Shown here in pieces: positions 1 to 44,472 of a DNA stretch of 64,000 nt. The position numbers were made by a program, and so were the translations under genes. Each line of letters starts with the position of its first letter. Positions within the stretch are counted from its first letter, which is position 1. The notes under the pieces were generated by a model that was given only the letters and a program-made list of their open reading frames with translations, was not told the origin of the DNA and did no database searches. Source of the stretch: Phorcus lineatus (lineage: Eukaryota; Mollusca; Gastropoda; Trochida; Trochidae); assembly GCA_921293015.1 (NCBI GenBank), contig OV121084.1, positions 26,040,946 through 26,104,945 of the forward strand. Direction: 5' to 3'.

Positions 1-145
1 CATCGAAATAGGCATGACATTTGCAAAGCTGCAATGGTCCGGCACATCTGCTTCTCTCGAAACGATTCTCAATATTACCTAGAACGGAAATCAGAGTTCA
101 GAAAAATCATAAAGAAAACCTCTTGAATATCGAAACCGTTTCTGT

Positions 146-151
146 AAAAAA
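146..151. repeat. Variable A-run
   Basis: Six A residues here in most copies. There are seven in copies 9, 12-18, 37, 39 and 41, and eight in copy 10. It is the source of the 1366-bp and 1360-bp length classes. It shifts the frame of the small open reading frame that crosses it, which argues that this frame is not translated. Confidence 0.95.
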
Positions 152-160
152 TCGGGTCAC

Positions 161-170
161 TTTTGGCGCC
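161..170 (+). promoter_or_regulatory. E2F/DP-type site
   Basis: TTTTGGCGCC contains a perfect match to the E2F consensus TTTSSCGC (162-169). I saw no change in it in any copy. E2F/DP drives G1/S transcription in animals, which fits the histone-type 3' end of the same gene. It lies about 600 bp upstream of the inferred start, far for a classical E2F site, so direct control is inferred only. It may instead serve a second, TATA-less start. Confidence 0.5.
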
Positions 171-204
171 GCTACAGTGATAGCATTGGAGGCTACCGTA
201 GGTA

Positions 205-216
205 CGCGCATGCGTG
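205..216. promoter_or_regulatory. NRF-1-like palindromic site
   Basis: CGCGCATGCGTG matches the NRF-1 consensus YGCGCAYGCGCR at 11 of 12 positions around the CGCATGCG palindrome (207-214). NRF-1 sites are common in CpG-rich animal promoters. It sits 35 bp after the E2F-type site and overlaps the first CRE-like half. Confidence 0.4.
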
Positions 217-239
217 ACGTCGCTATGGTCACGACGTCA
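215..239. promoter_or_regulatory. Inverted pair of CRE-like motifs
   Basis: TGACGTCG (215-222) and CGACGTCA (232-239) are exact reverse complements separated by 9 nt. Each is one base from the CRE TGACGTCA bound by CREB/ATF bZIP proteins. In copies 8 and 10 the right half is changed to CGGCGTCA. In copies 9 and 11 two bases of the spacer differ. Confidence 0.4.
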
Positions 240-271
240 TTTATCTGTTGATGTCACAGACGATGTAGCCA

Positions 272-297
272 GTCTCCGGCGAAGCGCCGCCGGAGAC
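272..297. repeat. GC-rich inverted repeat, 10-bp arms
   Basis: Left arm GTCTCCGGCG (272-281) and right arm CGCCGGAGAC (288-297) are perfectly complementary around a 6-nt centre AAGCGC. The element holds five CpGs and looked unchanged in all copies, while a nearby CpG at about offset 331 is mutated in ten copies. It could be a hairpin, a dimeric protein-binding site or a boundary element; nothing here decides. Confidence 0.75.
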
Positions 298-340
298 GGA
301 CGTATTTAGGGGAGAGGCCGCCCGCGCGGTTTTGGGCTTA

Positions 341-348
341 TTTGCCGA
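341..348 (+). promoter_or_regulatory. Weak second E2F-like site
   Basis: TTTGCCGA matches TTTSSCGC at 7 of 8 positions. In copies 8 and 9 it reads TTTGGCGA. Weak evidence on its own; listed because it lies in the same CpG-rich block as the perfect site. Confidence 0.2.
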
Positions 349-410
349 ATTTCCTGACTTCAGATGATTTAATTTACCGTTCGTCAATGCATTCCTTCTT
401 GACGCAAATA

Positions 411-422
411 ATCACAATCACA
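411..422. repeat. ATCACA x2 indel site
   Basis: Two adjacent ATCACA units. One unit is lost in copies 17, 19, 20, 23, 24, 33, 35, 36, 37, 38 and 41, which gives the 1359- and 1360-bp classes. The change is typical replication slippage and is a useful marker for tracing exchange between copies. Confidence 0.95.
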
Positions 423-537
423 CATACAGTTTTCCCACATTAATCTAAGTAAACGGATATTAAGCCGCTGTTCTAAAATGCAAGTTTTGTTAGTCTATAT
501 ACTTGTGAAAACAGAACCATTTACAACCGCATTTGTG

Positions 538-556
538 CCAATCAGTTTTCAATCAG
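538..556 (+). promoter_or_regulatory. CCAAT box and adjacent CAATCAG repeat
   Basis: CCAATCAG begins at 538 and CAATCAG recurs at 550-556. CCAAT is the NF-Y core found in many histone and cell-cycle promoters. It is about 195 bp upstream of the TATA box, further than the usual 60-100 bp upstream of a start, so its role is uncertain. Confidence 0.4.
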
Positions 557-562
557 TGTCAG

Positions 563-677
563 TTATCAAGTGTGTTACAATCTCCTATCACTCAGTTATC
601 AAAACACAGCCGTGGCGGTTCTGCTTATCATTGTGCCATGTTAGAGTGATTAGATTATTGTCAGGATTCAATTATCT
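563..677 (-). promoter_or_regulatory. Cluster of five GATA-type motifs
   Basis: On the minus strand the stretch holds WGATAR matches, read on the plus strand as TTATCA (563-568), CTATCA (585-590), TTATCA (596-601), TTATCA (625-630) and TTATCT (672-677). Five in 115 bp is more than expected by chance, but the region is AT-rich and some may be incidental. They could give tissue or stage control through GATA factors. Confidence 0.3.
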
Positions 678-703
678 CCAATACACTCCACATATCTGGC
701 ATG

Positions 704-738
704 AACAATGAGAAGAACATGTCATTCGTATGTATAAA
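704..738 (+). promoter_or_regulatory. Proximal core promoter with TATA box (copy 1)
   Basis: TATAAA at 733-738 is identical in all 47 copies. An AACAATG SOX-type motif at 704-710 lies just upstream (lost in copy 17, where it reads AACAATT). A CATT start-like sequence at 763-766 lies about 31 bp after the first base of the TATA box, the normal distance, and resembles the PyCATTCPu cap motif described for sea urchin histone genes. This predicts a start near 764 and a leader of about 58 nt. An exact PyCATTCPu match also occurs upstream of the TATA box (722-728) but has no TATA box of its own. Confidence 0.75.
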
Positions 739-821
739 TGCAGAGACGATTTCGATGGAGGACATTATCTACCCTAGCTTTCTCCAGCAAACCTGTATTT
801 AGAGATTCGTGCCGATTCAAC

Positions 822-1127
822 ATGGAAAAAGTTCAAATGTACGCAGAATTGACTCAGACAGAAACACGTTTCAAACGGGCCTGTGAACAAGTAGTTCTCC
901 TGAATGACAAGCTTGAAGGTCTCCAACGCCGATATGACAAAGCAAGACAAGAGAATCATCCTTCATTTCGCTACAACCTCCGCCTGAAGATGGCATCTGT
1001 TGAAGGCGTACGCAATGCTTACTATGAATACGCTTGTGAAAAGGCAGAGAGGATTGCCGAGTTGAGGTACTATGTATCTGAAGAAGCCCAGTCCGACTCC
1101 GAAGGTGAAGACAGCATGGTGTACTAA
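822..1127 (+). CDS. Copy 1: 101-aa coiled-coil/acidic-tail protein, unknown family
   Basis: Small intron-less protein of unknown function; I do not recognise the family. Residues 10-45 keep an unbroken heptad pattern (L10, T13, F17, A20, V24, L27, L31, L34, Y38, A41, N45), predicting a coiled coil. Residues 49-84 look like a second helix rich in Tyr, Arg and Glu. The tail 86-97 is acidic, with S91 and S93 in CK2-type S-x-x-E contexts. There are two Cys (21, 72), nine Tyr, no Trp, and no signal peptide or membrane segment. Net charge is near zero, unlike a histone. The AUG at 822 is chosen because it has A at -3 and G at +4 and lies after the predicted start; an in-frame AUG at 738 overlaps the TATA box. 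The histone-type hairpin suggests S-phase-linked, non-polyadenylated mRNA (inference). This copy has the R47P variant (codon 960-962). At every variable site I tracked it matches copy 4. Confidence 0.78.
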   Translation: MEKVQMYAELTQTETRFKRACEQVVLLNDKLEGLQRRYDKARQENHPSFRYNLRLKMASVEGVRNAYYEYACEKAERIAELRYYVSEEAQSDSEGEDSMVY

Positions 1128-1157
1128 GACAACCATGCAGTCTAACCATTTTACAAC

Positions 1158-1173
1158 AGCCCTTGTCAGGGCT
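1158..1173 (+). terminator. Histone-type mRNA 3' stem-loop (copy 1)
   Basis: AGCCCT-TGTC-AGGGCT folds into a 6-bp stem with a 4-nt loop, the exact size of the animal replication-dependent histone hairpin (GGYYCU-UYUN-AGRRCC). The second stem pair G-C and loop bases U1 and U3, which matter for SLBP recognition, are kept. The outer pair is A-U instead of G-C, and loop position 2 is G instead of a pyrimidine. The flank AAACA after the stem resembles the histone cleavage region, so the mRNA would end near 1178, about 415 nt long. It lies 31 nt after the stop codon, a typical histone spacing. It is present in all 47 copies; in eight of them the third stem pair is U-G. Confidence 0.82.
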
Positions 1174-1183
1174 AAACAAATAT

Positions 1184-1192
1184 CAAAAAAGA
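1184..1192 (+). terminator. Histone downstream element-like (U7 snRNA target)
   Basis: CAAAAAAGA differs at one base from CAAGAAAGA, the purine-rich downstream element of sea urchin-type histone genes that pairs with the 5' end of U7 snRNA. It starts 11 nt after the hairpin, as in histone genes. It is unchanged in every copy except copy 10, where it is replaced. Together with the hairpin it gives the complete two-part signal for histone-type cleavage. Confidence 0.75.
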
Positions 1193-1239
1193 TTTCTGTT
1201 ATACAATGCACAATCCCAAACCCTCCGTCTTTGTATGTT

Positions 1240-1245
1240 AATAAA
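1240..1245 (+). terminator. Canonical poly(A) signal downstream of the hairpin
   Basis: AATAAA lies about 70 nt beyond the hairpin, followed by a moderately T/G-rich stretch. Coexistence of hairpin and AATAAA is reported for some invertebrate histone genes, for example in mussels. Here it could give a back-up polyadenylated transcript in non-dividing cells. Present in all copies. Confidence 0.55.
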
Positions 1246-2097
1246 CTAAAACGCCTACAATTTTGCGTATCTAAACTGGCACAAACAATTGCCCCACAAA
1301 TATAAACATGCAGAATAGCATACGTGCACACACATGGAAACGCACACAAGACAACCCCATGTGCACATCGAAATAGGCATGACATTTGCAAAGCTGCAAT
1401 GGTCCGGCACATCTGCCTCTCTCGAAACGATTCTCAATATTACCTAGAACGGAAATCAGAGTTCAGAAAAATCATAAAGAAAACCTCTTGAATATCGAAA
1501 CCGTTTCTGTAAAAAATCGGGTCACTTTTGGCGCCGCTACAGTGATAGCATTGGAGGCTACCGTAGGTACGCGCATGCGTGACGTCGCTATGGTCACGAC
1601 GTCATTTATCTGTTGATGTCACAGACGATGTAGCCAGTCTCCGGCGAAGCGCCGCCGGAGACGGACGTATTTAGGGGAGAGGCCGCCCGCGCGGTTTTGG
1701 GCTTATTTGCCGAATTTCCTGACTTCAGATGATTTAATTTACCGTTCGTCAATGCATTCCTTCTTGACGCAAATAATCACAATCACACATACAGTTTTAC
1801 CACATTAATCTAAGTAAACGGATATTAAGCCGCTGTTCTAAAATGCAAGTTTTGTTAGTCTATATACTTGTGAAAACAGAACCATTTACAACCACATTTG
1901 TGCCAATCAGTTTTCAATCAGTGTCAGTTATCAAGTGTGTTACAATCTCCTATCACTCAGTTATCAAAACACAGCCGTGGCGGTTCTGCTTATCACTGTG
2001 CCATGTTAGAGTGATTAGATTATTGTCAGGATTCAATTATCTCCAATACACTCCACATATCTGGCATGAACAATGAGAAGAACATGTCATTCGTATG
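1246..2097 (+). other. Inter-gene spacer, copy 1 to copy 2 (pattern repeats in every copy)
   Basis: No gene seen. After AATAAA there is a CA-rich stretch (about 1321-1350) and a perfect 10-bp palindrome ATGTGCACAT (1359-1368) that spans the chosen monomer boundary. The regulatory blocks of the next copy follow at the same offsets as in copy 1. Confidence 0.7.
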
Positions 2098-2186
2098 TAT
2101 AAATGCAGAGACGATTTCGATGGAGGACATTATCTACCCTAGCTTTCTCCAGCAAACCTGTATTTAGAGATTCGTGCCGATTCAAC

Positions 2187-2492
2187 ATGGAAAAAGTTCA
2201 AATGTACGCAGAATTGACTCAGACAGAAACACGTTTCAAACGGGCCTGTGAACAAGTAGTTCTCCTGAATGACAAGCTTGAAGGTCTCCAACGCCGATAT
2301 GACAAAGCAAGACAAGAGAATCATCGTTCATTTCGCTACAACCTCCGCCTGAAGATGGCATCTGTTGAAGGCGTACGCAATGCTTACTATGAATACGCTT
2401 GTGAAAAGGCAGAGAGGATTGCCGAGTTGAGGTACTATGTATCTGAAGAAGCCCAGTCCGACTCCGAAGGTGAAGACAGCATGGTGTACTAA
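2187..2492 (+). CDS. Copy 2: 101-aa coiled-coil/acidic-tail protein
   Basis: Monomer 1366-2730. Consensus protein with R47. TATA 2098-2103, hairpin 2523-2538, downstream element 2549-2557, AATAAA 2605-2610. Its upstream variants (TTTTACC, ACCACA) differ from copies 1, 4, 6 and 7, showing two promoter haplotypes interleaved at this end of the window. Confidence 0.77.
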   Translation: MEKVQMYAELTQTETRFKRACEQVVLLNDKLEGLQRRYDKARQENHRSFRYNLRLKMASVEGVRNAYYEYACEKAERIAELRYYVSEEAQSDSEGEDSMVY

Positions 2493-3551
2493 GACAACCA
2501 TGCAGTCTAACCATTTTACAACAGCCCTTGTCAGGGCTAAACAAATATCAAAAAAGATTTCTGTTATACAATGCACAATCCCAAACCCTCCGTCTTTGTA
2601 TGTTAATAAACTAAAACGCCTACAATTTTGCGTATCTAAACTGGCACAAACAATTGCCCCACAAATATAAACATGCAGAATAGCATACGTGCACACACAT
2701 GGAAACGCACACAAGACAACCCCATGTGCACATCGAAATAGGCATGACATTTGCAAAGCTGCAATGGTCCGGCACATCTGCCTCTCTCGAAACGATTCTC
2801 AATATTACCTAGAACGGAAATCAGAGTTCAGAAAAATCATAAAGAAAACCTCTTGAATATCGAAACCGTTTCTGTAAAAAATCGGGTCACTTTTGGCGCC
2901 GCTACAGTGATAGCATTGGAGGCTACCGTAGGTACGCGCATGCGTGACGTCGCTATGGTCACGACGTCATTTATCTGTTGATGTCACAGACGATGTAGCC
3001 AGTCTCCGGCGAAGCGCCGCCGGAGACGGACGTATTTAGGGGAGAGGCCGCCCGCGCGGTTTTGGGCTTATTTGCCGAATTTCCTGACTTCAGATGATTT
3101 AATTTACCGTTCGTCAATGCATTCCTTCTTGACGCAAATAATCACAATCACACATACAGTTTTACCACATTAATCTAAGTAAACGGATATTAAGCCGCTG
3201 TTCTAAAATGCAAGTTTTGTTAGTCTATATACTTGTGAAAACAGAACCATTTACAACCACATTTGTGCCAATCGGTTTTCAATCAGTGTCAGTTATCAAG
3301 TGTGTTACAATCTCCTATCACTCAGTTATCAAAACACAGCCGTGGCGGTTCTGCTTATCACTGTGCCATGTTAGAGTGATTAGATTATTGTCAGGATTCA
3401 ATTATCTCCAATACACTCCACATATCTGGCATGAACAATGAGAAGAACATGTCATTCGTATGTATAAATGCAGAGACGATTTCGATGGAGGACATTATCT
3501 ACCCTAGCTTTCTCCAGCAAACCTGTATTTAGAGATTCGTGCCGATTCAAC

Positions 3552-3857
3552 ATGGAAAAAGTTCAAATGTACGCAGAATTGACTCAGACAGAAACACGTT
3601 TCAAACGGGCCTGTGAACAAGTAGTTCTCCTGAATGACAAGCTTGAAGGTCTCCAACGCCGATATGACAAAGCAAGACAAGAGAATCATCGTTCATTTCG
3701 CTACAACCTCCGCCTGAAGATGGCATCTGTTGAAGGCGTACGCAATGCTTACTATGAATACGCTTGTGAAAAGGCAGAGAGGATTGTCGAGTTGAGGTAC
3801 TATGTATCTGAAGAAGCCCAGTCCGACTCCGAAGGTGAAGACAGCATGGTGTACTAA
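3552..3857 (+). CDS. Copy 3: 101-aa protein, A79V variant
   Basis: Monomer 2731-4095. The codon at 3786-3788 is GTC, giving Val for Ala79 in the second helix, a conservative change unique to this copy. One upstream base (ATCGG for ATCAG, between the two CAATCAG motifs) is also private. TATA 3463-3468, hairpin 3888-3903, downstream element 3914-3922, AATAAA 3970-3975. Confidence 0.77.
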   Translation: MEKVQMYAELTQTETRFKRACEQVVLLNDKLEGLQRRYDKARQENHRSFRYNLRLKMASVEGVRNAYYEYACEKAERIVELRYYVSEEAQSDSEGEDSMVY

Positions 3858-4916
3858 GACAACCATGCAGTCTAACCATTTTACAACAGCCCTTGTCAGG
3901 GCTAAACAAATATCAAAAAAGATTTCTGTTATACAATGCACAATCCCAAACCCTCCGTCTTTGTATGTTAATAAACTAAAACGCCTACAATTTTGCGTAT
4001 CTAAACTGGCACAAACAATTGCCCCACAAATATAAACATGCAGAATAGCATACGTGCACACACATGGAAACGCACACAAGACAACCCCATGTGCACATCG
4101 AAATAGGCATGACATTTGCAAAGCTGCAATGGTCCGGCACATCTGCTTCTCTCGAAACGATTCTCAATATTACCTAGAACGGAAATCAGAGTTCAGAAAA
4201 ATCATAAAGAAAACCTCTTGAATATCGAAACCGTTTCTGTAAAAAATCGGGTCACTTTTGGCGCCGCTACAGTGATAGCATTGGAGGCTACCGTAGGTAC
4301 GCGCATGCGTGACGTCGCTATGGTCACGACGTCATTTATCTGTTGATGTCACAGACGATGTAGCCAGTCTCCGGCGAAGCGCCGCCGGAGACGGACGTAT
4401 TTAGGGGAGAGGCCGCCCGCGCGGTTTTGGGCTTATTTGCCGAATTTCCTGACTTCAGATGATTTAATTTACCGTTCGTCAATGCATTCCTTCTTGACGC
4501 AAATAATCACAATCACACATACAGTTTTCCCACATTAATCTAAGTAAACGGATATTAAGCCGCTGTTCTAAAATGCAAGTTTTGTTAGTCTATATACTTG
4601 TGAAAACAGAACCATTTACAACCGCATTTGTGCCAATCAGTTTTCAATCAGTGTCAGTTATCAAGTGTGTTACAATCTCCTATCACTCAGTTATCAAAAC
4701 ACAGCCGTGGCGGTTCTGCTTATCATTGTGCCATGTTAGAGTGATTAGATTATTGTCAGGATTCAATTATCTCCAATACACTCCACATATCTGGCATGAA
4801 CAATGAGAAGAACATGTCATTCGTATGTATAAATGCAGAGACGATTTCGATGGAGGACATTATCTACCCTAGCTTTCTCCAGCAAACCTGTATTTAGAGA
4901 TTCGTGCCGATTCAAC

Positions 4917-5222
4917 ATGGAAAAAGTTCAAATGTACGCAGAATTGACTCAGACAGAAACACGTTTCAAACGGGCCTGTGAACAAGTAGTTCTCCTGAAT
5001 GACAAGCTTGAAGGTCTCCAACGCCGATATGACAAAGCAAGACAAGAGAATCATCCTTCATTTCGCTACAACCTCCGCCTGAAGATGGCATCTGTTGAAG
5101 GCGTACGCAATGCTTACTATGAATACGCTTGTGAAAAGGCAGAGAGGATTGCCGAGTTGAGGTACTATGTATCTGAAGAAGCCCAGTCCGACTCCGAAGG
5201 TGAAGACAGCATGGTGTACTAA
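4917..5222 (+). CDS. Copy 4: 101-aa protein, R47P variant
   Basis: Monomer 4096-5460. It carries Pro at position 47, just after the coiled coil, where it may break or mark the turn between the two helices. It matches copy 1 at all tracked sites, three monomers away. TATA 4828-4833, hairpin 5253-5268, downstream element 5279-5287, AATAAA 5335-5340. Confidence 0.77.
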   Translation: MEKVQMYAELTQTETRFKRACEQVVLLNDKLEGLQRRYDKARQENHPSFRYNLRLKMASVEGVRNAYYEYACEKAERIAELRYYVSEEAQSDSEGEDSMVY

Positions 5223-6281
5223 GACAACCATGCAGTCTAACCATTTTACAACAGCCCTTGTCAGGGCTAAACAAATATCAAAAAAGATTTCTGTTATACA
5301 ATGCACAATCCCAAACCCTCCGTCTTTGTATGTTAATAAACTAAAACGCCTACAATTTTGCGTATCTAAACTGGCACAAACAATTGCCCCACAAATATAA
5401 ACATGCAGAATAGCATACGTGCACACACATGGAAACGCACACAAGACAACCCCATGTGCACATCGAAATAGGCATGACATTTGCAAAGCTGCAATGGTCC
5501 GGCACATCTGCCTCTCTCGAAACGATTCTCAATATTACCTAGAACGGAAATCAGAGTTCAGAAAAATCATAAAGAAAACCTCTTGAATATCGAAACCGTT
5601 TCTGTAAAAAATCGGGTCACTTTTGGCGCCGCTACAGTGATAGCATTGGAGGCTACCGTAGGTACGCGCATGCGTGACGTCGCTATGGTCACGACGTCAT
5701 TTATCTGTTGATGTCACAGACGATGTAGCCAGTCTCCGGCGAAGCGCCGCCGGAGACGGACGTATTTAGGGGAGAGGCCGCCCGCGCGGTTTTGGGCTTA
5801 TTTGCCGAATTTCCTGACTTCAGATGATTTAATTTACCGTTCGTCAATGCATTCCTTCTTGACGCAAATAATCACAATCACACATACAGTTTTACCACAT
5901 TAATCTAAGTAAACGGATATTAAGCCGCTGTTCTAAAATGCAAGTTTTGTTAGTCTATATACTTGTGAAAACAGAACCATTTACAACCACATTTGTGCCA
6001 ATCAGTTTTCAATCAGTGTCAGTTATCAAGTGTGTTACAATCTCCTATCACTCAGTTATCAAAACACAGCCGTGGCGGTTCTGCTTATCACTGTGCCATG
6101 TTAGAGTGATTAGATTATTGTCAGGATTCAATTATCTCCAATACACTCCACATATCTGGCATGAACAATGAGAAGAACATGTCATTCGTATGTATAAATG
6201 CAGAGACGATTTCGATGGAGGACATTATCTACCCTAGCTTTCTCCAGCAAACCTGTATTTAGAGATTCGTGCCGATTCAAC

Positions 6282-6587
6282 ATGGAAAAAGTTCAAATGT
6301 ACGCAGAATTGACTCAGACAGAAACACGTTTCAAACGGGCCTGTGAACAAGTAGTTCTCCTGAATGACAAGCTTGAAGGTCTCCAACGCCGATATGACAA
6401 AGCAAGACAAGAGAATCATCCTTCATTTCGCTACAACCTCCGCCTGAAGATGGCATCTGTTGAAGGCGTACGCAATGCTTACTATGAATACGCTTGTGAA
6501 AAGGCAGAGAGGATTGCCGAGTTGAGGTACTATGTATCTGAAGAAGCCCAGTCCGACTCCGAAGGTGAAGACAGCATGGTGTACTAA
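6282..6587 (+). CDS. Copy 5: 101-aa protein, R47P variant
   Basis: Monomer 5461-6825. It combines the R47P coding change of copies 1 and 4 with the promoter haplotype of copies 2 and 3, a clear recombinant or conversion product. TATA 6193-6198, hairpin 6618-6633, downstream element 6644-6652, AATAAA 6700-6705. Confidence 0.77.
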   Translation: MEKVQMYAELTQTETRFKRACEQVVLLNDKLEGLQRRYDKARQENHPSFRYNLRLKMASVEGVRNAYYEYACEKAERIAELRYYVSEEAQSDSEGEDSMVY

Positions 6588-7646
6588 GACAACCATGCAG
6601 TCTAACCATTTTACAACAGCCCTTGTCAGGGCTAAACAAATATCAAAAAAGATTTCTGTTATACAATGCACAATCCCAAACCCTCCGTCTTTGTATGTTA
6701 ATAAACTAAAACGCCTACAATTTTGCGTATCTAAACTGGCACAAACAATTGCCCCACAAATATAAACATGCAGAATAGCATACGTGCACACACATGGAAA
6801 CGCACACAAGACAACCCCATGTGCACATCGAAATAGGCATGACATTTGCAAAGCTGCAATGGTCCGGCACATCTGCTTCTCTCGAAACGATTCTCAATAT
6901 TACCTAGAACGGAAATCAGAGTTCAGAAAAATCATAAAGAAAACCTCTTGAATATCGAAACCGTTTCTGTAAAAAATCGGGTCACTTTTGGCGCCGCTAC
7001 AGTGATAGCATTGGAGGCTACCGTAGGTACGCGCATGCGTGACGTCGCTATGGTCACGACGTCATTTATCTGTTGATGTCACAGACGATGTAGCCAGTCT
7101 CCGGCGAAGCGCCGCCGGAGACGGACGTATTTAGGGGAGAGGCCGCCCGCGCGGTTTTGGGCTTATTTGCCGAATTTCCTGACTTCAGATGATTTAATTT
7201 ACCGTTCGTCAATGCATTCCTTCTTGACGCAAATAATCACAATCACACATACAGTTTTCCCACATTAATCTAAGTAAACGGATATTAAGCCGCTGTTCTA
7301 AAATGCAAGTTTTGTTAGTCTATATACTTGTGAAAACAGAACCATTTACAACCGCATTTGTGCCAATCAGTTTTCAATCAGTGTCAGTTATCAAGTGTGT
7401 TACAATCTCCTATCACTCAGTTATCAAAACACAGCCGTGGCGGTTCTGCTTATCATTGTGCCATGTTAGAGTGATTAGATTATTGTCAGGATTCAATTAT
7501 CTCCAATACACTCCACATATCTGGCATGAACAATGAGAAGAACATGTCATTCGTATGTATAAATGCAGAGACGATTTCGATGGAGGACATTATCTACCCT
7601 AGCTTTCTCCAGCAAACCTGTATTTAGAGATTCGTGCCGATTCAAC

Positions 7647-7952
7647 ATGGAAAAAGTTCAAATGTACGCAGAATTGACTCAGACAGAAACACGTTTCAAA
7701 CGGGCCTGTGAACAAGTAGTTCTCCTGAATGACAAGCTTGAAGGTCTCCAACGCCGATATGACAAAGCAAGACAAGAGAATCATCGTTCATTTCGCTACA
7801 ACCTCCGCCTGAAGATGGCATCTGTTGAAGGCGTACGCAATGCTTACTATGAATACGCTTGTGAAAAGGCAGAGAGGATTGCCGAGTTGAGGTACTATGT
7901 ATCTGAAGAAGCCCAGTCCGACTCCGAAGGTGAAGACAGCATGGTGTACTAA
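7647..7952 (+). CDS. Copy 6: 101-aa coiled-coil/acidic-tail protein
   Basis: Monomer 6826-8190. Consensus protein (R47) with the promoter haplotype of copies 1 and 4, the reciprocal combination to copy 5. TATA 7558-7563, hairpin 7983-7998, downstream element 8009-8017, AATAAA 8065-8070. Confidence 0.77.
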   Translation: MEKVQMYAELTQTETRFKRACEQVVLLNDKLEGLQRRYDKARQENHRSFRYNLRLKMASVEGVRNAYYEYACEKAERIAELRYYVSEEAQSDSEGEDSMVY

Positions 7953-9011
7953 GACAACCATGCAGTCTAACCATTTTACAACAGCCCTTGTCAGGGCTAA
8001 ACAAATATCAAAAAAGATTTCTGTTATACAATGCACAATCCCAAACCCTCCGTCTTTGTATGTTAATAAACTAAAACGCCTACAATTTTGCGTATCTAAA
8101 CTGGCACAAACAATTGCCCCACAAATATAAACATGCAGAATAGCATACGTGCACACACATGGAAACGCACACAAGACAACCCCATGTGCACATCGAAATA
8201 GGCATGACATTTGCAAAGCTGCAATGGTCCGGCACATCTGCTTCTCTCGAAACGATTCTCAATATTACCTAGAACGGAAATCAGAGTTCAGAAAAATCAT
8301 AAAGAAAACCTCTTGAATATCGAAACCGTTTCTGTAAAAAATCGGGTCACTTTTGGCGCCGCTACAGTGATAGCATTGGAGGCTACCGTAGGTACGCGCA
8401 TGCGTGACGTCGCTATGGTCACGACGTCATTTATCTGTTGATGTCACAGACGATGTAGCCAGTCTCCGGCGAAGCGCCGCCGGAGACGGACGTATTTAGG
8501 GGAGAGGCCGCCCGCGCGGTTTTGGGCTTATTTGCCGAATTTCCTGACTTCAGATGATTTAATTTACCGTTCGTCAATGCATTCCTTCTTGACGCAAATA
8601 ATCACAATCACACATACAGTTTTCCCACATTAATCTAAGTAAACGGATATTAAGCCGCTGTTCTAAAATGCAAGTTTTGTTAGTCTATATACTTGTGAAA
8701 ACAGAACCATTTACAACCGCATTTGTGCCAATCAGTTTTCAATCAGTGTCAGTTATCAAGTGTGTTACAATCTCCTATCACTCAGTTATCAAAACACAGC
8801 CGTGGCGGTTCTGCTTATCATTGTGCCATGTTAGAGTGATTAGATTATTGTCAGGATTCAATTATCTCCAATACACTCCACATATCTGGCATGAACAATG
8901 AGAAGAACATGTCATTCGTATGTATAAATGCAGAGACGATTTCGATGGAGGACATTATCTACCCTAGCTTTCTCCAGCAAACCTGTATTTAGAGATTCGT
9001 GCCGATTCAAC

Positions 9012-9317
9012 ATGGAAAAAGTTCAAATGTACGCAGAATTGACTCAGACAGAAACACGTTTCAAACGGGCCTGTGAACAAGTAGTTCTCCTGAATGACAA
9101 GCTTGAAGGTCTCCAACGCCGATATGACAAAGCAAGACAAGAGAATCATCGTTCATTTCGCTACAACCTCCGCCTGAAGATGGCATCTGTTGAAGGCGTA
9201 CGCAATGCTTACTATGAATACGCTTGTGAAAAGGCAGAGAGGATTGCCGAGTTGAGGTACTATGTATCTGAAGAAGCCCAGTCCGACTCCGAAGGTGAAG
9301 ACAGCATGGTGTACTAA
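9012..9317 (+). CDS. Copy 7: 101-aa coiled-coil/acidic-tail protein
   Basis: Monomer 8191-9555. Consensus protein; matches copy 6 at all tracked sites, so likely a recent duplicate. TATA 8923-8928, hairpin 9348-9363, downstream element 9374-9382, AATAAA 9430-9435. Confidence 0.77.
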   Translation: MEKVQMYAELTQTETRFKRACEQVVLLNDKLEGLQRRYDKARQENHRSFRYNLRLKMASVEGVRNAYYEYACEKAERIAELRYYVSEEAQSDSEGEDSMVY

Positions 9318-9895
9318 GACAACCATGCAGTCTAACCATTTTACAACAGCCCTTGTCAGGGCTAAACAAATATCAAAAAAGATTTCTGTTATACAATGCA
9401 CAATCCCAAACCCTCCGTCTTTGTATGTTAATAAACTAAAACGCCTACAATTTTGCGTATCTAAACTGGCACAAACAATTGCCCCACAAATATAAACATG
9501 CAGAATAGCATACGTGCACACACATGGAAACGCACACAAGACAACCCCATGTGCACATCGAAATAGGCATGACATTTGCAAAGCTGCAATGGTCCGGCAC
9601 ATCTGCCTCTCTTGAAACGATTCTCAATATTACATAGAACGGAAATCAGAGTTCAGAAAAATCATAAAGAAAACCTCTTGAATATCGAAACCGTTTCTGT
9701 AAAAAATCGGGTCACTTTTGGCGCCGCTACAGTGATAGCATTGGAGGCTACCGTAGGTACGCGCATGCGTGACGTCGCTATGGTCACGGCGTCATTTATC
9801 TGTTGATGTCACAGACGATGTAGCCAGTCTCCGGCGAAGCGCCGCCGGAGACGGACGTATTTAGGGGAGAGGCCGCCCGCGCGGTTTTGGGCTTA

Positions 9896-9904
9896 TTTGG
9901 CGAA
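9896..9904 (+). promoter_or_regulatory. Variant E2F-like site upstream of copy 8
   Basis: TTTGGCGAA replaces TTTGCCGAA found in most copies. The same change is at 11262-11270 upstream of copy 9. It raises similarity to the TTTGGCG form of E2F sites; the effect is unknown. Confidence 0.2.
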
Positions 9905-10376
9905 TTTCCTGACTTCAGATGATTTAATTTACCGTTCGTCAATGCATTCCTTCTTGACGCAAATAATCACAATCACACATACAGTTTTCCCACATTAATC
10001 TAAGTAAACGGATATTAAGCCGCTGTTCTAAAATGCAAGTTTTGTTAGTCTATATACTTGTGAAAACAGAACCATTTACAACCACATTTGTGCCAATCAG
10101 TTTTCAATCAGTGTCAGTTATCAAGTGTGTTACAATCTCCTATCACTCAGTTATCAAAACACAGCCGTGGCGGTTCTGCTTATCACTGTGCCATGTTAGA
10201 GTGATTAGATTATTGTCAGGATTCAATTATCTCCAATACACTCCACATATCTGGCATGAACAATGAGAAGAACATGTCATTCGTATGTATAAATGCAGAG
10301 ACGATTTCGATGGAGGACATTATCTACCCTAGCTTTCTCCAGCAAACCTGTATTTAGAGATTCGTGCCGATTCAAC

Positions 10377-10682
10377 ATGGAAAAAGTTCAAATGTACGCA
10401 GAATTGACTCAGACAGAAACACGTTTCAAACGGGCCTGTGAACAAGTAGTTCTCCTGAATGACAAGCTTGAAGGTCTCCAACGCCGATATGACAAAGCAA
10501 GACAAGAGAATCATCGTTCATTTCGCTACAACCTCCGCCTGAAGATGGCATCTGTTGAAGGCGTACGCAATGCTTACTATGAATACGCTTGTGAAAAGGC
10601 AGAGAGGATTGCCGAGTTGAGGTACTATGTATCTGAAGAAGCCCAGTCCGACTCCGAAGGTGAAGACAGCATGGTGTACTAA
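10377..10682 (+). CDS. Copy 8: 101-aa coiled-coil/acidic-tail protein
   Basis: Monomer 9556-10920. Consensus protein. The upstream part carries several variants shared with copy 9 (CTCTTG, TTACATAG and TTTGGCG), and its right CRE-like half is altered (CACGGC). TATA 10288-10293, hairpin 10713-10728, downstream element 10739-10747, AATAAA 10795-10800. Confidence 0.77.
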   Translation: MEKVQMYAELTQTETRFKRACEQVVLLNDKLEGLQRRYDKARQENHRSFRYNLRLKMASVEGVRNAYYEYACEKAERIAELRYYVSEEAQSDSEGEDSMVY

Positions 10683-11742
10683 GACAACCATGCAGTCTAA
10701 CCATTTTACAACAGCCCTTGTCAGGGCTAAACAAATATCAAAAAAGATTTCTGTTATACAATGCACAATCCCAAACCCTCCGTCTTTGTATGTTAATAAA
10801 CTAAAACGCCTACAATTTTGCGTATCTAAACTGGCACAAACAATTGCCCCACAAATATAGACATGCAGAATAGCATACGTGCACACACATGGAAACGCAC
10901 ACAAGACAACCCCATGTGCACATCGAAATAGGCATGACATTTGCAAAGCTGCAATGGTCCGGCACATCTGCCTCTCTTGAAACGATTCTCAATATTACAT
11001 AGAACGGAAATCAGAGTTCAGAAAAATCATAAAGAAAACCTCTTGAATATCGAAACCGTTTCTGTAAAAAAATCGGGTCACTTTTGGCGCCGCTACAGTG
11101 ATAGCATTGGAGGCTACCGTAGGTACGCGCATGCGTGACGTCGCTTGGGTCACGACGTCATTTATCTGTTGATGTCACAGACGATGTAGCCAGTCTCCGG
11201 CGAAGCGCCGCCGGAGACGGACGTATTTAGGGGAGAGGCCGCCCGCGCGGTTTTGGGCTTATTTGGCGAATTTCCTGACTTCAGATGATTTAATTTACCG
11301 TTCGTCAATGCATTCCTTCTTGACGCAAATAATCACAATCACACATACAGTTTTCCCACATTAATCTAAGTAAACGGATATTAAGCCGCTGTTCTAAAAT
11401 GCAAGTTTTGTTAGTCTATATACTTGTGAAAACAGAACCATTTACAACCACATTTGTGCCAATCAGTTTTCAATCAGTGTCAGTTATCAAGTGTGTTACA
11501 ATCTCCTATCACTCAGTTATCAAAACACAGCCGTGGCGGTTCTGCTTATCACTGTGCCATGTTAGAGTGATTAGATTATTGTCAGGATTCAATTATCTCC
11601 AATACACTCCACATATCTGGCATGAACAATGAGAAGAACATGTCATTCGTATGTATAAATGCAGAGACGATTTCGATGGAGGACATTATCTACCCTAGCT
11701 TTCTCCAGCAAACCTGTATTTAGAGATTCGTGCCGATTCAAC

Positions 11743-12048
11743 ATGGAAAAAGTTCAAATGTACGCAGAATTGACTCAGACAGAAACACGTTTCAAACGGG
11801 CCTGTGAACAAGTAGTTCTCCTGAATGACAAGCTTGAAGGTCTCCAACGCCGATATGACAAAGCAAGACAAGAGAATCATCGTTCATTTCGCTACAACCT
11901 CCGCCTGAAGATGGCATCTGTTGAAGGCGTACGCAATGCTTACTATGAATACGCTTGTGAAAAGGCAGAGAGGATTGCCGAGTTGAGGTACTATGTATCT
12001 GAAGAAGCCCAGTCCGACTCCGAAGGTGAAGACAGCATGGTGTACTAA
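11743..12048 (+). CDS. Copy 9: 101-aa coiled-coil/acidic-tail protein
   Basis: Monomer 10921-12286 (1366 bp, seven-A run). Consensus protein. Two bases between the CRE-like halves differ (CTTGGG for CTATGG), a change shared with copy 11 but not the intervening copy 10. TATA 11654-11659, hairpin 12079-12094, downstream element 12105-12113, AATAAA 12161-12166. Confidence 0.77.
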   Translation: MEKVQMYAELTQTETRFKRACEQVVLLNDKLEGLQRRYDKARQENHRSFRYNLRLKMASVEGVRNAYYEYACEKAERIAELRYYVSEEAQSDSEGEDSMVY

Positions 12049-13109
12049 GACAACCATGCAGTCTAACCATTTTACAACAGCCCTTGTCAGGGCTAAACAA
12101 ATATCAAAAAAGATTTCTGTTATACAATGCACAATCCCAAACCCTCCGTCTTTGTATGTTAATAAACTAAAACGCCTACAATTTTGCGTATCTAAACTGG
12201 CACAAACAATTGCCCCACAAATATAAACATGCAGAATAGCATACGTGCACACACATGGAAACGCACACAAGACAACCCCATGTGCACATCGAAATAGGCA
12301 TGACATTTGCAAAGCTGCAATGGTCCGGCACATCTGCTTCTCTCGAAACGATTCTCAATATTACCTAGAACGGAAATCAGAGTTCAGAAAAATCATAAAG
12401 AAAACCTCTTGAATATCGAAACCGTTTCTGTAAAAAAAATCGGGTCACTTTTGGCGCCGCTACAGTGATAGCATTGGAGGCTACCGTAGGTACGCGCATG
12501 CGTGACGTCGCTATGGTCACGGCGTCATTTATCTGTTGATGTCACAGACGATGTAGCCAGTCTCCGGCGAAGCGCCGCCGGAGACGGACGTATTTAGGGG
12601 AGAGGCCGCCCGCGCGGTTTTGGGCTTATTTGCCGAATTTCCTGACTTCAGATGACTTAATTTACCGTTCGTCAATGCATTCCTTCTTGACGCAAATAAT
12701 CACAATCACACATACAGTTTTCCCACATTAATCTAAGTAAACGGATATTAAGCCGCTGTTCTAAAATGCAAGTTTTGTAAGTCTATATACTTGTGAAAAC
12801 AGAACCATTTACAACCACATTTGTGCCAATCAGTTTTCAATCAGTGTCAGTTATCAAGTGTGTTACAATCTCCTATCACTCAGTTATCAAAACACAGCCG
12901 TGGCGGTTCTGCTTATCACTGTGCCATGTTAGAGTGATTAGATTATTGTCAGGATTCAATTATCTCCAATACACTCCACATATCTGGCATGAACAATGAG
13001 AAGAACATGTCATTCGTATGTATAAATGCAGAGACGATTTCGATGGAGGACATTATCTACCCTAGCTTTCTCCAGCAAACCTGTATTTAGAGATTCGTGC
13101 CGATTCAAC

Positions 13110-13415
13110 ATGGAAAAAGTTCAAATGTACGCAGAATTGACTCAGACAGAAACACGTTTCAAACGGGCCTGTGAACAAGTAGTTCTCCTGAATGACAAGC
13201 TTGAAGGTCTCCAACGCCGATATGACAAAGCAAGACAAGAGAATCATCGTTCATTTCGCTACAACCTCCGCCTGAAGATGGCATCTGTTGAAGGCGTACG
13301 CAATGCTTACTATGAATACGCTTGTGAAAAGGCAGAGAGGATTGCCGAGTTGAGGTACTATGTATCTGAAGAAGCCCAGTCCGACTCCGAAGGTGAAGAC
13401 AGCATGGTGTACTAA
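13110..13415 (+). CDS. Copy 10: 101-aa protein, gene lacking the downstream element
   Basis: Monomer 12287-13650 (1364 bp, eight-A run). Consensus protein and intact hairpin (13446-13461), but the 9-nt downstream element is replaced by CTGTTA, so U7-dependent cleavage should be impaired. TATA 13021-13026 and AATAAA 13525-13530 are intact, so this copy might rely on polyadenylation (inference). It also has private upstream changes (TGACTT for TGATTT, and GTAAGT for GTTAGT), making it the most diverged copy in the window. Confidence 0.75.
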   Translation: MEKVQMYAELTQTETRFKRACEQVVLLNDKLEGLQRRYDKARQENHRSFRYNLRLKMASVEGVRNAYYEYACEKAERIAELRYYVSEEAQSDSEGEDSMVY

Positions 13416-13471
13416 GACAACCATGCAGTCTAACCATTTTACAACAGCCCTTGTCAGGGCTAAACAAATAT

Positions 13472-13477
13472 CTGTTA
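13472..13477 (+). other. Replaced downstream element in copy 10
   Basis: Where other copies have CAAAAAAGA, this copy has CTGTTA, matching the CTGTTA that follows 9 nt later. The change looks like a small templated replacement and removes exactly the element and nothing else. Confidence 0.85.
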
Positions 13478-14471
13478 TTTCTGTTATACAATGCACAATC
13501 CCAAACCCTCCGTCTTTGTATGTTAATAAACTAAAACGCCTACAATTTTGCGTATCTAAACTGGCACAAACAATTGCCCCACAAATATAAACATGCAGAA
13601 TAGCATACGTGCACACACATGGAAACGCACACAAGACAACCCCATGTGCACATCGAAATAGGCATGACATTTGCAAAGCTGCAATGGTCCGGCACATCTG
13701 CCTCTCTCGAAACGATTCTCAATATTACCTAGAACGGAAATCAGAGTTCAGAAAAATCATAAAGAAAACCTCTTGAATATCGAAACCGTTTCTGTAAAAA
13801 ATCGGGTCACTTTTGGCGCCGCTACAGTGATAGCATTGGAGGCTACCGTAGGTACGCGCATGCGTGACGTCGCTTGGGTCACGACGTCATTTATCTGTTG
13901 ATGTCACAGACGATGTAGCCAGTCTCCGGCGAAGCGCCGCCGGAGACGGACGTATTTAGGGGAGAGGCCGCCCGCGCGGTTTTGGGCTTATTTGCCGAAT
14001 TTCCTGACTTCAGATGATTTAATTTACCGTTCGTCAATGCATTCCTTCTTGACGCAAATAATCACAATCACACATACAGTTTTCCCACATTAATCTAAGT
14101 AAACGGATATTAAGCCGCTGTTCTAAAATGCAAGTTTTGTTAGTCTATATACTTGTGAAAACAGAACCATTTACAACCACATTTGTGCCAATCAGTTTTC
14201 AATCAGTGTCAGTTATCAAGTGTGTTACAATCTCCTATCACTCAGTTATCAAAACACAGCCGTGGCGGTTCTGCTTATCACTGTGCCATGTTAGAGTGAT
14301 TAGATTATTGTCAGGATTCAATTATCTCCAATACACTCCACATATCTGGCATGAACAATGAGAAGAACATGTCATTCGTATGTATAAATGCAGAGACGAT
14401 TTCGATGGAGGACATTATCTACCCTAGCTTTCTCCAGCAAACCTGTATTTAGAGATTCGTGCCGATTCAAC

Positions 14472-14777
14472 ATGGAAAAAGTTCAAATGTACGCAGAATT
14501 GACTCAGACAGAAACACGTTTCAAACGGGCCTGTGAACAAGTAGTTCTCCTGAATGACAAGCTTGAAGGTCTCCAACGCCGATATGACAAAGCAAGACAA
14601 GAGAATCATCGTTCATTTCGCTACAACCTCCGCCTGAAGATGGCATCTGTTGAAGGCGTACGCAATGCTTACTATGAATACGCTTGTGAAAAGGCAGAGA
14701 GGATTGCCGAGTTGAGGTACTATGTATCTGAAGAAGCCCAGTCCGACTCCGAAGGTGAAGACAGCATGGTGTACTAA
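14472..14777 (+). CDS. Copy 11: 101-aa protein, U-G hairpin variant
   Basis: Monomer 13651-15015. Consensus protein. The first copy with AGTCCT as left hairpin arm, giving a U-G third pair. TATA 14383-14388, hairpin 14808-14823, downstream element 14834-14842, AATAAA 14890-14895. Confidence 0.77.
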   Translation: MEKVQMYAELTQTETRFKRACEQVVLLNDKLEGLQRRYDKARQENHRSFRYNLRLKMASVEGVRNAYYEYACEKAERIAELRYYVSEEAQSDSEGEDSMVY

Positions 14778-15837
14778 GACAACCATGCAGTCTAACCATT
14801 TTACAACAGTCCTTGTCAGGGCTAAACAAATATCAAAAAAGATTTCTGTTATACAATGCACAATCCCAAACCCTCCGTCTTTGTATGTTAATAAACTAAA
14901 ACGCCTACAATTTTGCGTATCTAAACTGGCACAAACAATTGCCCCACAAATATAAACATGCAGAATAGCATACGTGCACACACATGGAAACGCACACAAG
15001 ACAACCCCATGTGCACATCGAAATAGGCATGACATTTGCAAAGCTGCAATGGTCCGGCACATCTGCTTCTCTCGAAACGATTCTCAATATTACCTAGAAC
15101 GGAAATCAGAGTTCAGAAAAATCATAAAGAAAACCTCTTGAATATCGAAACCGTTTCTGTAAAAAAATCGGGTCACTTTTGGCGCCGCTACAGTGATAGC
15201 ATTGGAGGCTACCGTAGGTACGCGCATGCGTGACGTCGCTATGGTCACGACGTCATTTATCTGTTGATGTCACAGACGATGTAGCCAGTCTCCGGCGAAG
15301 CGCCGCCGGAGACGGACGTATTTAGGGGAGAGGCCGCCCGCGCGGTTTTGGGCTTATTTGCCGAATTTCCTGACTTCAGATGATTTAATTTACCGTTCGT
15401 CAATGCATTCCTTCTTGACGCAAATAATCACAATCACACATACAGTTTTCCCACATTAATCTAAGTAAACGGATATTAAGCCGCTGTTCTAAAATGCAAG
15501 TTTTGTTAGTCTATATACTTGTGAAAACAGAACCATTTACAACCACATTTGTGCCAATCAGTTTTCAATCAGTGTCAGTTATCAAGTGTGTTACAATCTC
15601 CTATCACTCAGTTATCAAAACACAGCCGTGGCGGTTCTGCTTATCACTGTGCCATGTTAGAGTGATTAGATTATTGTCAGGATTCAATTATCTCCAATAC
15701 ACTCCACATATCTGGCATGAACAATGAGAAGAACATGTCATTCGTATGTATAAATGCAGAGACGATTTCGATGGAGGACATTATCTACCCTAGCTTTCTC
15801 CAGCAAACCTGTATTTAGAGATTCGTGCCGATTCAAC

Positions 15838-16143
15838 ATGGAAAAAGTTCAAATGTACGCAGAATTGACTCAGACAGAAACACGTTTCAAACGGGCCTGT
15901 GAACAAGTAGTTCTCCTGAATGACAAGCTTGAAGGTCTCCAACGCCGATATGACAAAGCAAGACAAGAGAATCATCGTTCATTTCGCTACAACCTCCGCC
16001 TGAAGATGGCATCTGTTGAAGGCGTACGCAATGCTTACTATGAATACGCTTGTGAAAAGGCAGAGAGGATTGCCGAGTTGAGGTACTATGTATCTGAAGA
16101 AGCCCAGTCCGACTCCGAAGGTGAAGACAGCATGGTGTACTAA
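15838..16143 (+). CDS. Copy 12: 101-aa protein, U-G hairpin variant
   Basis: Monomer 15016-16381 (1366 bp). Consensus protein. It begins a run of near-identical 1366-bp monomers (copies 12-16). TATA 15749-15754, hairpin 16174-16189 with the U-G pair, downstream element 16200-16208, AATAAA 16256-16261. Confidence 0.77.
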   Translation: MEKVQMYAELTQTETRFKRACEQVVLLNDKLEGLQRRYDKARQENHRSFRYNLRLKMASVEGVRNAYYEYACEKAERIAELRYYVSEEAQSDSEGEDSMVY

Positions 16144-17203
16144 GACAACCATGCAGTCTAACCATTTTACAACAGTCCTTGTCAGGGCTAAACAAATATC
16201 AAAAAAGATTTCTGTTATACAATGCACAATCCCAAACCCTCCGTCTTTGTATGTTAATAAACTAAAACGCCTACAATTTTGCGTATCTAAACTGGCACAA
16301 ACAATTGCCCCACAAATATAAACATGCAGAATAGCATACGTGCACACACATGGAAACGCACACAAGACAACCCCATGTGCACATCGAAATAGGCATGACA
16401 TTTGCAAAGCTGCAATGGTCCGGCACATCTGCTTCTCTCGAAACGATTCTCAATATTACCTAGAACGGAAATCAGAGTTCAGAAAAATCATAAAGAAAAC
16501 CTCTTGAATATCGAAACCGTTTCTGTAAAAAAATCGGGTCACTTTTGGCGCCGCTACAGTGATAGCATTGGAGGCTACCGTAGGTACGCGCATGCGTGAC
16601 GTCGCTATGGTCACGACGTCATTTATCTGTTGATGTCACAGACGATGTAGCCAGTCTCCGGCGAAGCGCCGCCGGAGACGGACGTATTTAGGGGAGAGGC
16701 CGCCCGCGCGGTTTTGGGCTTATTTGCCGAATTTCCTGACTTCAGATGATTTAATTTACCGTTCGTCAATGCATTCCTTCTTGACGCAAATAATCACAAT
16801 CACACATACAGTTTTCCCACATTAATCTAAGTAAACGGATATTAAGCCGCTGTTCTAAAATGCAAGTTTTGTTAGTCTATATACTTGTGAAAACAGAACC
16901 ATTTACAACCACATTTGTGCCAATCAGTTTTCAATCAGTGTCAGTTATCAAGTGTGTTACAATCTCCTATCACTCAGTTATCAAAACACAGCCGTGGCGG
17001 TTCTGCTTATCACTGTGCCATGTTAGAGTGATTAGATTATTGTCAGGATTCAATTATCTCCAATACACTCCACATATCTGGCATGAACAATGAGAAGAAC
17101 ATGTCATTCGTATGTATAAATGCAGAGACGATTTCGATGGAGGACATTATCTACCCTAGCTTTCTCCAGCAAACCTGTATTTAGAGATTCGTGCCGATTC
17201 AAC

Positions 17204-17509
17204 ATGGAAAAAGTTCAAATGTACGCAGAATTGACTCAGACAGAAACACGTTTCAAACGGGCCTGTGAACAAGTAGTTCTCCTGAATGACAAGCTTGAAG
17301 GTCTCCAACGCCGATATGACAAAGCAAGACAAGAGAATCATCGTTCATTTCGCTACAACCTCCGCCTGAAGATGGCATCTGTTGAAGGCGTACGCAATGC
17401 TTACTATGAATACGCTTGTGAAAAGGCAGAGAGGATTGCCGAGTTGAGGTACTATGTATCTGAAGAAGCCCAGTCCGACTCCGAAGGTGAAGACAGCATG
17501 GTGTACTAA
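17204..17509 (+). CDS. Copy 13: 101-aa protein, U-G hairpin variant
   Basis: Monomer 16382-17747 (1366 bp). Matches copy 12 at all tracked sites. TATA 17115-17120, hairpin 17540-17555 with the U-G pair, downstream element 17566-17574, AATAAA 17622-17627. Confidence 0.77.
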   Translation: MEKVQMYAELTQTETRFKRACEQVVLLNDKLEGLQRRYDKARQENHRSFRYNLRLKMASVEGVRNAYYEYACEKAERIAELRYYVSEEAQSDSEGEDSMVY

Positions 17510-18569
17510 GACAACCATGCAGTCTAACCATTTTACAACAGTCCTTGTCAGGGCTAAACAAATATCAAAAAAGATTTCTGTTATACAATGCACAATCCCA
17601 AACCCTCCGTCTTTGTATGTTAATAAACTAAAACGCCTACAATTTTGCGTATCTAAACTGGCACAAACAATTGCCCCACAAATATAAACATGCAGAATAG
17701 CATACGTGCACACACATGGAAACGCACACAAGACAACCCCATGTGCACATCGAAATAGGCATGACATTTGCAAAGCTGCAATGGTCCGGCACATCTGCTT
17801 CTCTCGAAACGATTCTCAATATTACCTAGAACGGAAATCAGAGTTCAGAAAAATCATAAAGAAAACCTCTTGAATATCGAAACCGTTTCTGTAAAAAAAT
17901 CGGGTCACTTTTGGCGCCGCTACAGTGATAGCATTGGAGGCTACCGTAGGTACGCGCATGCGTGACGTCGCTATGGTCACGACGTCATTTATCTGTTGAT
18001 GTCACAGACGATGTAGCCAGTCTCCGGCGAAGCGCCGCCGGAGACGGACGTATTTAGGGGAGAGGCCGCCCGCGCGGTTTTGGGCTTATTTGCCGAATTT
18101 CCTGACTTCAGATGATTTAATTTACCGTTCGTCAATGCATTCCTTCTTGACGCAAATAATCACAATCACACATACAGTTTTCCCACATTAATCTAAGTAA
18201 ACGGATATTAAGCCGCTGTTCTAAAATGCAAGTTTTGTTAATCTATATACTTGTGAAAACAGAACCATTTACAACCACATTTGTGCCAATCAGTTTTCAA
18301 TCAGTGTCAGTTATCAAGTGTGTTACAATCTCCTATCACTCAGTTATCAAAACACAGCCGTGGCGGTTCTGCTTATCACTGTGCCATGTTAGAGTGATTA
18401 GATTATTGTCAGGATTCAATTATCTCCAATACACTCCACATATCTGGCATGAACAATGAGAAGAACATGTCATTCGTATGTATAAATGCAGAGACGATTT
18501 CGATGGAGGACATTATCTACCCTAGCTTTCTCCAGCAAACCTGTATTTAGAGATTCGTGCCGATTCAAC

Positions 18570-18875
18570 ATGGAAAAAGTTCAAATGTACGCAGAATTGA
18601 CTCAGACAGAAACACGTTTCAAACGGGCCTGTGAACAAGTAGTTCTCCTGAATGACAAGCTTGAAGGTCTCCAACGCCGATATGACAAAGCAAGACAAGA
18701 GAATCATCGTTCATTTCGCTACAACCTCCGCCTGAAGATGGCATCTGTTGAAGGCGTGCGCAATGCTTACTATGAATACGCTTGTGAAAAGGCAGAGAGG
18801 ATTGCCGAGTTGAGGTACTATGTATCTGAAGAAGCCCAGTCCGACTCCGAAGGTGAAGACAGCATGGTGTACTAA
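18570..18875 (+). CDS. Copy 14: 101-aa protein, only silent coding change
   Basis: Monomer 17748-19113 (1366 bp). The protein is consensus, but Val63 is GTG (18756-18758) instead of GTA, the only synonymous coding change I found. The hairpin (18906-18921) has the standard C-G third pair although both neighbours have U-G. TATA 18481-18486, downstream element 18932-18940, AATAAA 18988-18993. Confidence 0.77.
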   Translation: MEKVQMYAELTQTETRFKRACEQVVLLNDKLEGLQRRYDKARQENHRSFRYNLRLKMASVEGVRNAYYEYACEKAERIAELRYYVSEEAQSDSEGEDSMVY

Positions 18876-44459: not shown

Positions 44460-44462
44460 ATG
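44460..44462 (+). other. New out-of-frame leader AUG, copy 33
   Basis: G-to-A at a CpG turns TTCGTGCC into TTCATGCC. The AUG is 13 nt before the CDS start, in another frame, with pyrimidine-poor but not optimal context. The same change is at 48543 and 49903. Confidence 0.8.
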
Positions 44463-44472
44463 CCGATTCAAC

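Follow-up and report, generated by a model that had tools for sequence, protein, structure and literature searches.

Tandem copies of a non-histone gene with a histone-type 3′ end in the gastropod Phorcus lineatus

The 3′ signals of histone type are thought to be reserved for histone messages in animals (as stated in parts of PMC10388802), and the described systems chosen for comparison, those of Hydractinia (PMC5011920), bdelloid rotifers (PMC2642717) and the clam Lucina (PMC6210712), all concern histones in the portions of these papers that were available. No recognised non-histone gene with a 3′ end of this type appeared in literature covered by titles and the beginnings of abstracts, most subscription journals lying outside that coverage. 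If the reading proposed below is true, a conserved non-histone gene of about 240 copies with all the 3′ signals of the host would end this exclusivity, it would point to a supply of protein tied to DNA replication, and poly(A)-selected RNA-seq would fail to pick up genes of this kind. The natural variant hairpin of the array, closed by A-U and with a loop G, would in addition offer a test of the tolerance of SLBP.

The window, i.e., the whole stretch of 64,000 nucleotides that was analysed (window 1..64000, C7:26040946-26104945, + strand), comes from a genome of 958 Mb in 74 contigs and consists, according to copy mapping, of 47 head-to-tail copies of a unit of about 1,365 bp, each with its coding sequence (CDS). 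It is part of a tandem array extending over about C7:26034282-26184578, and its complete units (n=46) share a mean pairwise identity of 99.6%. The elements of each unit follow one another in the order TATAAAT, ATG with a 101-codon open reading frame (ORF), hairpin, 10-nt gap, CAAAAAAGA, CAATGC and AATAAA. TATAAAT (733..739, + strand, in the first copy) is situated 89 nt upstream of the ATG in 47/47 copies and is a putative TATA box. The first CDS (822..1127, + strand) encodes a non-histone protein of 101 aa, and this ORF is uninterrupted in 47/47 copies. An in-frame ATG at 738, which would extend the reading to 129 aa, was rejected for its overlap with the TATAAAT at 733-739. An antisense ORF of 149 aa (963-1412, − strand), found in most of the other copies as well and in register with the CDS, was likewise discounted, since the register probably accounts for it; an ORF of such length was found in 26 of 2,000 shuffled units.

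Each unit also has, about 500 nt before the TATA box, a block of roughly 90 bp (GCGCATGCGTGACGTC...CCGGCGAAGCGCCGCCGGAGAC; window 206-298 for the first) that seems to have diverged less between the array loci than the sequence on either side. It includes an inverted repeat, as well as CRE-like and NRF1-like motifs; TGACGTC and GCGCATGCG, both from this block, were absent at the five histone loci checked. Just beyond the end of the array, an ORF of 468 aa, rich in serine, is located on the opposite strand (L010:3408-4814, C7).

A hairpin about 30 nt past the stop had been claimed for every copy by the first-pass annotation, and the count agrees: AGCCCT-TGTC-AGGGCT, a 6-bp stem with a 4-nt loop (1158-1173, + strand, in the first copy), stands 30 nt past the stop in 47/47 copies, 39 of them exact and eight reading AGTCCT, where the stem is preserved via a G-U pair. 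The annotation had also placed a downstream element ten nt past the hairpin in every copy, which was right about the spacing and wrong about "every": the histone downstream element CAAAAAAGA (1184-1192, + strand, 10-nt gap from the stem) is present in 46/47 copies and was lost solely from the copy whose hairpin lies at 13446..13461 (+ strand). CAATGC (1204..1209, + strand) follows in 47/47 copies at the place that it occupies in host histone 3′ ends. AATAAA, a possible poly(A) signal that the annotation had passed over in silence, occurs 109-112 nt past the stop in 47/47 copies (1240..1245, + strand, in the first), which leaves room for a polyadenylated form. Loop bases U1 and U3 are important for SLBP, and both are kept in the window copies together with the second G of the stem, just as the retention of the second G-C pair and of U1/U3 had been claimed. 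In the human complex this second G contacts Arg181 of SLBP (excerpt of PMC10388802).

Chance occurrence was assessed with shuffled sequences. The 47 hairpins of the window, at a spacing of about 1,365 bp, were set against 100 dinucleotide shuffles, in which matches with up to three mismatches averaged 0.24 and never exceeded three. A set of 20,000 units made by dinucleotide shuffling contained 25 hairpins of histone type and not one together with the downstream element; the definition of this motif had been set after the sequence was seen, and the test with model R1, which was built from host histones alone (see below), is the fairer one. When 4,227 Rfam families were searched over window 1-1400, Histone3 (RF00032) came out on top with 22.8 bits (E 0.0015), its match spanning the full length of the model at 1153-1197; the gathering score of this family is 34, which no match in the window attains. 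The remaining Rfam matches were below their own cut-offs and were treated as chance.

The core histones of the host were located with a typed metazoan H4 query. They form mixed four-gene clusters of about 4 kb on C5, C7, C9 and C13; these clusters are found at the very ends of contigs (end of C5, starts of C7, C9 and C13), so the true copy number of core histones is probably larger than assembled. Clusters of stem-loop histone genes and the SLBP gene described below point to an animal genome, and the H2A and H2B sequences look molluscan. At the loci read, the H4, H2B, H2A and H3 genes carry GGTCCTTTTCAGGACC 27-33 nt past the stop, with the exception of one H4 gene (L046) whose frame is shifted. 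The exact CAAAAAAGA is present in the H4 genes of C13 and C9, the remaining host ends being close variants, and ten distinct core-histone 3′ ends, once aligned, all end in CAATGC, placed as in the array. With a like hairpin at +27 to +33 and an identical element in these H4 genes, the host histones are not clearly different from the array; a clear difference is what the annotation had named as refuting its reading. The hairpins themselves differ at 5/16 bases, i.e., in two pairs changed on both sides and in one loop base, and that of the array is the most divergent one read, being closed by A-U, with G as the second loop base and AAAC after the stem; neither the closing pair nor the loop G occurs in any host histone end read.

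The ten distinct core-histone 3′ ends, without any array sequence, were used for building a covariance model (R1). Applied to the window, R1 recovered 47/47 array ends at E≤1 without any further match, in support of the histone-type 3′ end that had been proposed. The scores were 38.2 bits (E 3.4e-8) for 38 copies, including the whole 3′ end of the first copy (1150..1209, + strand), 36.2 bits (E 1.3e-7) for eight copies, and 16.9 bits (E 0.045) for the copy at 13446..13461 without the element, so that 46/47 ends reach E≤1.3e-7. At the other array loci R1 gave 25.4-41.9 bits, apart from one degraded remnant (14.4 bits, E 0.41). By comparison, Rfam Histone3 scored the core histones of one cluster (L041) at 33.6-37.4, three of the four types passing the cut-off of 34 and H2B falling just short, and the array at 22.8 in the window and at best 26.1 at other loci.

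Kinship of the ends was also examined by alignment. Three array ends were aligned pairwise with five histone ends, and the observed score was reached by 0/2,000 shuffles in 14 of the 15 alignments and by 2/2,000 in the remaining one; for the stretch past the stem alone, 4/5,000 shuffles matched it. Over its 60 nt, the array end is identical to that of H4 in 43/60 columns and to that of linker histone H1 in 44/61, the value for H1 versus H4 being 43/60. A structure set of 132 matches from histones, from the array and from the L061 gene described below, 32 of its rows being distinct, showed the six pairs formed in 99.5% of cells and two pairs changing on both sides, in an alignment that, being fitted to the model, is biased in its favour. 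The pairing percentage and the covariation score were reached by 0/500 shuffles, whereas the counts of changed pairs and of pair types did not exceed the shuffles; sliding the helix by one column lowered the pairing to 41-65%. The matches at E≤0.001 in a model search of 16 sources (193,683 bases) were situated, as far as compared, at histone genes, at array copies or at L061.

H1 of the host forms its own tandem array at C2:65.53-65.97 Mb (L059, L060), apart from the core-histone clusters, with units of about 3 kb and at least 138 copies (138 of 146 matches reported; 150 of 156 candidates scored). The hairpin of the copy read is GGCCCTTTTCAGGGCC, and CAATGC is present as well. This end, likewise no part of R1, scored 41.4 bits, compared with 38.2 bits for the window array, and with 37.2 in Rfam it passes the cut-off. 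Promoter kinship between the array and H1 was looked for, and no alignment rose above shuffles.

In the whole genome, the array-type hairpin was counted 239 times (164 forward, 75 reverse) and the reversed control pattern 0 times. Ten array loci of 9.9 kb each, on C7, C16, C25 and C41, were examined. They contain 42 copies with full-length ORF, all of which have the hairpin (one with a mismatched pair, one with G-U at the second pair), and broken copies and fragments at L014, L017 and L018. The most diverged of them (L018, C41:25.81 Mb) has truncated and broken copies beside intact ones, and GATAAA in place of AATAAA. At the C16a and C25 loci CAAAAGAGA replaces CAAAAAAGA, and some copies on C41 are without the leading C. 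Four comparisons of the window with other loci gave identical bases at 62/64 positions of the hairpin, 33/36 of the element and 92/103 between stop and hairpin, as against 575/677 in the AATAAA region and 644/762 in the spacer (about 85%); given such short stretches, better preservation of hairpin and element than of spacer is suggestive rather than strong. The upstream stretch in these comparisons is offset from the conserved block at 206-298 and was not counted for it.

The array protein (101 aa, 12.1 kDa, pI 5.5) has a net negative charge, no proline, and an acidic, serine-containing tail at its C terminus; a two-helix coiled coil would be a guess from this composition. Five protein variants occur in the window, 38/47 copies being identical. 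That the gene is not a histone gene, as had been claimed, agrees with the searches: Pfam gave nothing above cut-off and no histone family at E≤10, and no meaningful score was obtained against host H2A, H2B, H3 and H4 or the two ends of H1 outside its globular domain. PDB sequences contained no relative (best E 0.18). None was detected in phages, viral contigs or prokaryote contigs either; since animal genomes are scarce in these collections or absent from them, this has no bearing on relatives in other animals. Similar uncharacterised proteins may occur in marine invertebrates, a point that was not used as evidence.

For selection on the CDS, the comparison between loci is taken as the informative one, because the copies of the window are very recent; 5/6 of the variable CDS sites within it are non-synonymous. 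Among seven of the eight representative copies extracted (all but C7c), dN/dS values were 0.06-0.40 over 21 pairs, 19 of them ≤0.21, which indicates purifying selection, and no indel was present in the CDS of the eight aligned representatives. The length of the ORF is in itself not beyond chance, an ORF of at least 101 aa on either strand being found in 357/2,000 shuffled units.

As to the processing machinery, the RNA-binding domain of SLBP was found at one locus as two adjacent pieces (C13:29.818 Mb; 51.1 and 39.6 bits vs. a cut-off of 27). A search of the genome identified no U7, giving at best 25 bits with RF00066 (cut-off 34) and five matches to a U7-like pattern, compared with 13 for the control; this gap does not separate the explanations, because the element of the array equals that of host H4. 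What the DNA itself displays is a coding gene under selection, at high copy number, with the full host-type 3′ signals in order and spacing, in a genome with an SLBP gene. The best reading, which we hold to be probable, is that of a multicopy, uninterrupted non-histone gene with message production of the SLBP/U7 type coupled to S phase. SLBP would bind the array hairpin and the U7 snRNP would pair with CAAAAAAGA; the pre-mRNA would then be cut a few nt past the hairpin, giving a message without poly(A) tail, which SLBP would tie to S phase. High copy number together with histone-type control could thus supply a small acidic protein in a pulse that coincides with histone synthesis, and any chromatin-related role would be a further prediction. 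The data suggest, without proving it, that synthesis of the array protein keeps pace with DNA replication.

Several observations count against this reading: the Rfam score below cut-off, the divergent loop and closing pair, AATAAA in 47/47 copies, the one copy without the element, CAAAAGAGA on C16 and C25 and the missing leading C in some C41 copies. To these may be added the 5/6 non-synonymous CDS sites of the window, an ORF length within the range of chance, the U7 search that identified none, and the want of promoter kinship with H1. A variant that does not exclude it has two 3′ ends, one of histone type in dividing cells and one made by polyadenylation at AATAAA in others. This seems quite possible, without being favoured, since AATAAA is found in all window copies and in 6/8 of the aligned representatives, the host H1 end read also has AATAAA further on, and, in the accessible parts of the respective papers, bdelloid H2A variants have both signals (PMC2642717) and some human histone genes yield poly(A) messages (PMC3661734, PMC7807067). 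Against it, both aligned C41 copies have GATAAA and yet keep the hairpin, and between loci the AATAAA region is preserved no better than the spacer (575/677, vs. 62/64 for the hairpin). If, on the other hand, polyadenylation were the only mode and the hairpin a leftover without function, from a histone gene or a duplication, its position as the most divergent one read in the genome and the intact AATAAA of the window copies would be accounted for. The persistence of hairpin, purine element and CAATGC on four contigs while the spacers diverge would not, and the spacing is as close as H1 and H4 keep it mutually, unexpected for a relic. Moreover, two stem pairs have changed on both sides relative to the host histones and are still paired, in the model-fitted alignment in which 2/5 measures are not above shuffles. 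We regard a relic as unlikely.

Also unlikely, and indeed scarcely credible, is a satellite whose ORF is non-functional. Low dN/dS between loci, the indel-free CDS of the eight representatives and the 42 copies with full-length ORF elsewhere speak against such a satellite, in spite of the high copy number, the near-identical units, the 5/6 non-synonymous CDS variants of the window, an ORF length not beyond chance and the broken or fragmentary copies at L014, L017 and L018. The last alternative, that of a protein related to histones, or itself one, but diverged past recognition, draws on its histone-like size and gene layout and on H1 and H4 having the nearest 3′ ends. It is set against the empty Pfam result for histones at E≤10, the want of any score with the host histones tried, the pI of 5.5 and the lack of a relative in PDB, and is very improbable.

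The array may not be the only such case. Exact core-histone hairpins were counted 96 times in the genome, 85 in the clusters and 11 elsewhere, the latter all away from any core or linker histone match that was reported. Each of these 11 follows, by 131-501 nt and on the same strand, a match to one ORF of 133 aa, which is unrelated to the array protein and has only a weak Pfam match below cut-off. Two of these 11 members match the full 133 aa and nine the C-terminal part only; the ORF has 22 matches altogether, and next to the other 11 no exact hairpin is listed. The members are located at L061:12-590 (C7:43.107 Mb) and at ten more places on C7, C9, C11, C25 and C41 (L058). The copy at L061 has the hairpin, a purine-rich stretch and TCAATGC; R1 gives it 50.1 bits and Rfam 34.4, a value slightly above the cut-off. 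Pairs in convergent orientation are spaced by 3,646 bp on C7 as well as on C25, and these pairs together with the dispersal suggest a mobile element or segmental copies. The broader proposal is that poly(A)-free, S-phase-coupled messages extend beyond histones in this animal, with the array family providing a replication-coupled nuclear or chromatin protein at histone-like levels and perhaps with the second family as a further instance. With only 2/11 second-family members matching over the full length, we put this at slightly under an even call.

Comparison with the known systems places the array as follows. RF00032 is matched full-length at the right place and on the right strand, but with a score below cut-off. 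The host core histones have in common with the array a short uninterrupted gene, a hairpin 27-33 nt past the stop, CAAAAAAGA (H4 of C13 and C9) and CAATGC; they differ in encoding histone proteins, in GGTCCTTTTCAGGACC followed by ACCA, in their promoters and in their arrangement in mixed four-gene clusters. H1 is, like the array, a single-gene tandem array, and the one 3′ end read has hairpin, CAAATATC, CAATGCAC and a downstream AATAAA, whereas it encodes H1, has a G-C closing pair, the loop TTTC and a unit of about 3 kb, and is without upstream similarity. The replication-dependent histones of Hydractinia (PMC5011920, in the portion available) combine stem-loop and purine-rich downstream element with intronless multicopy genes, as the array does with its uninterrupted coding region; there, histones only are concerned and expression in S phase was shown by EdU labelling and in situ hybridisation. 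Taken with these systems, the array would represent known machinery with a new, non-histone client.
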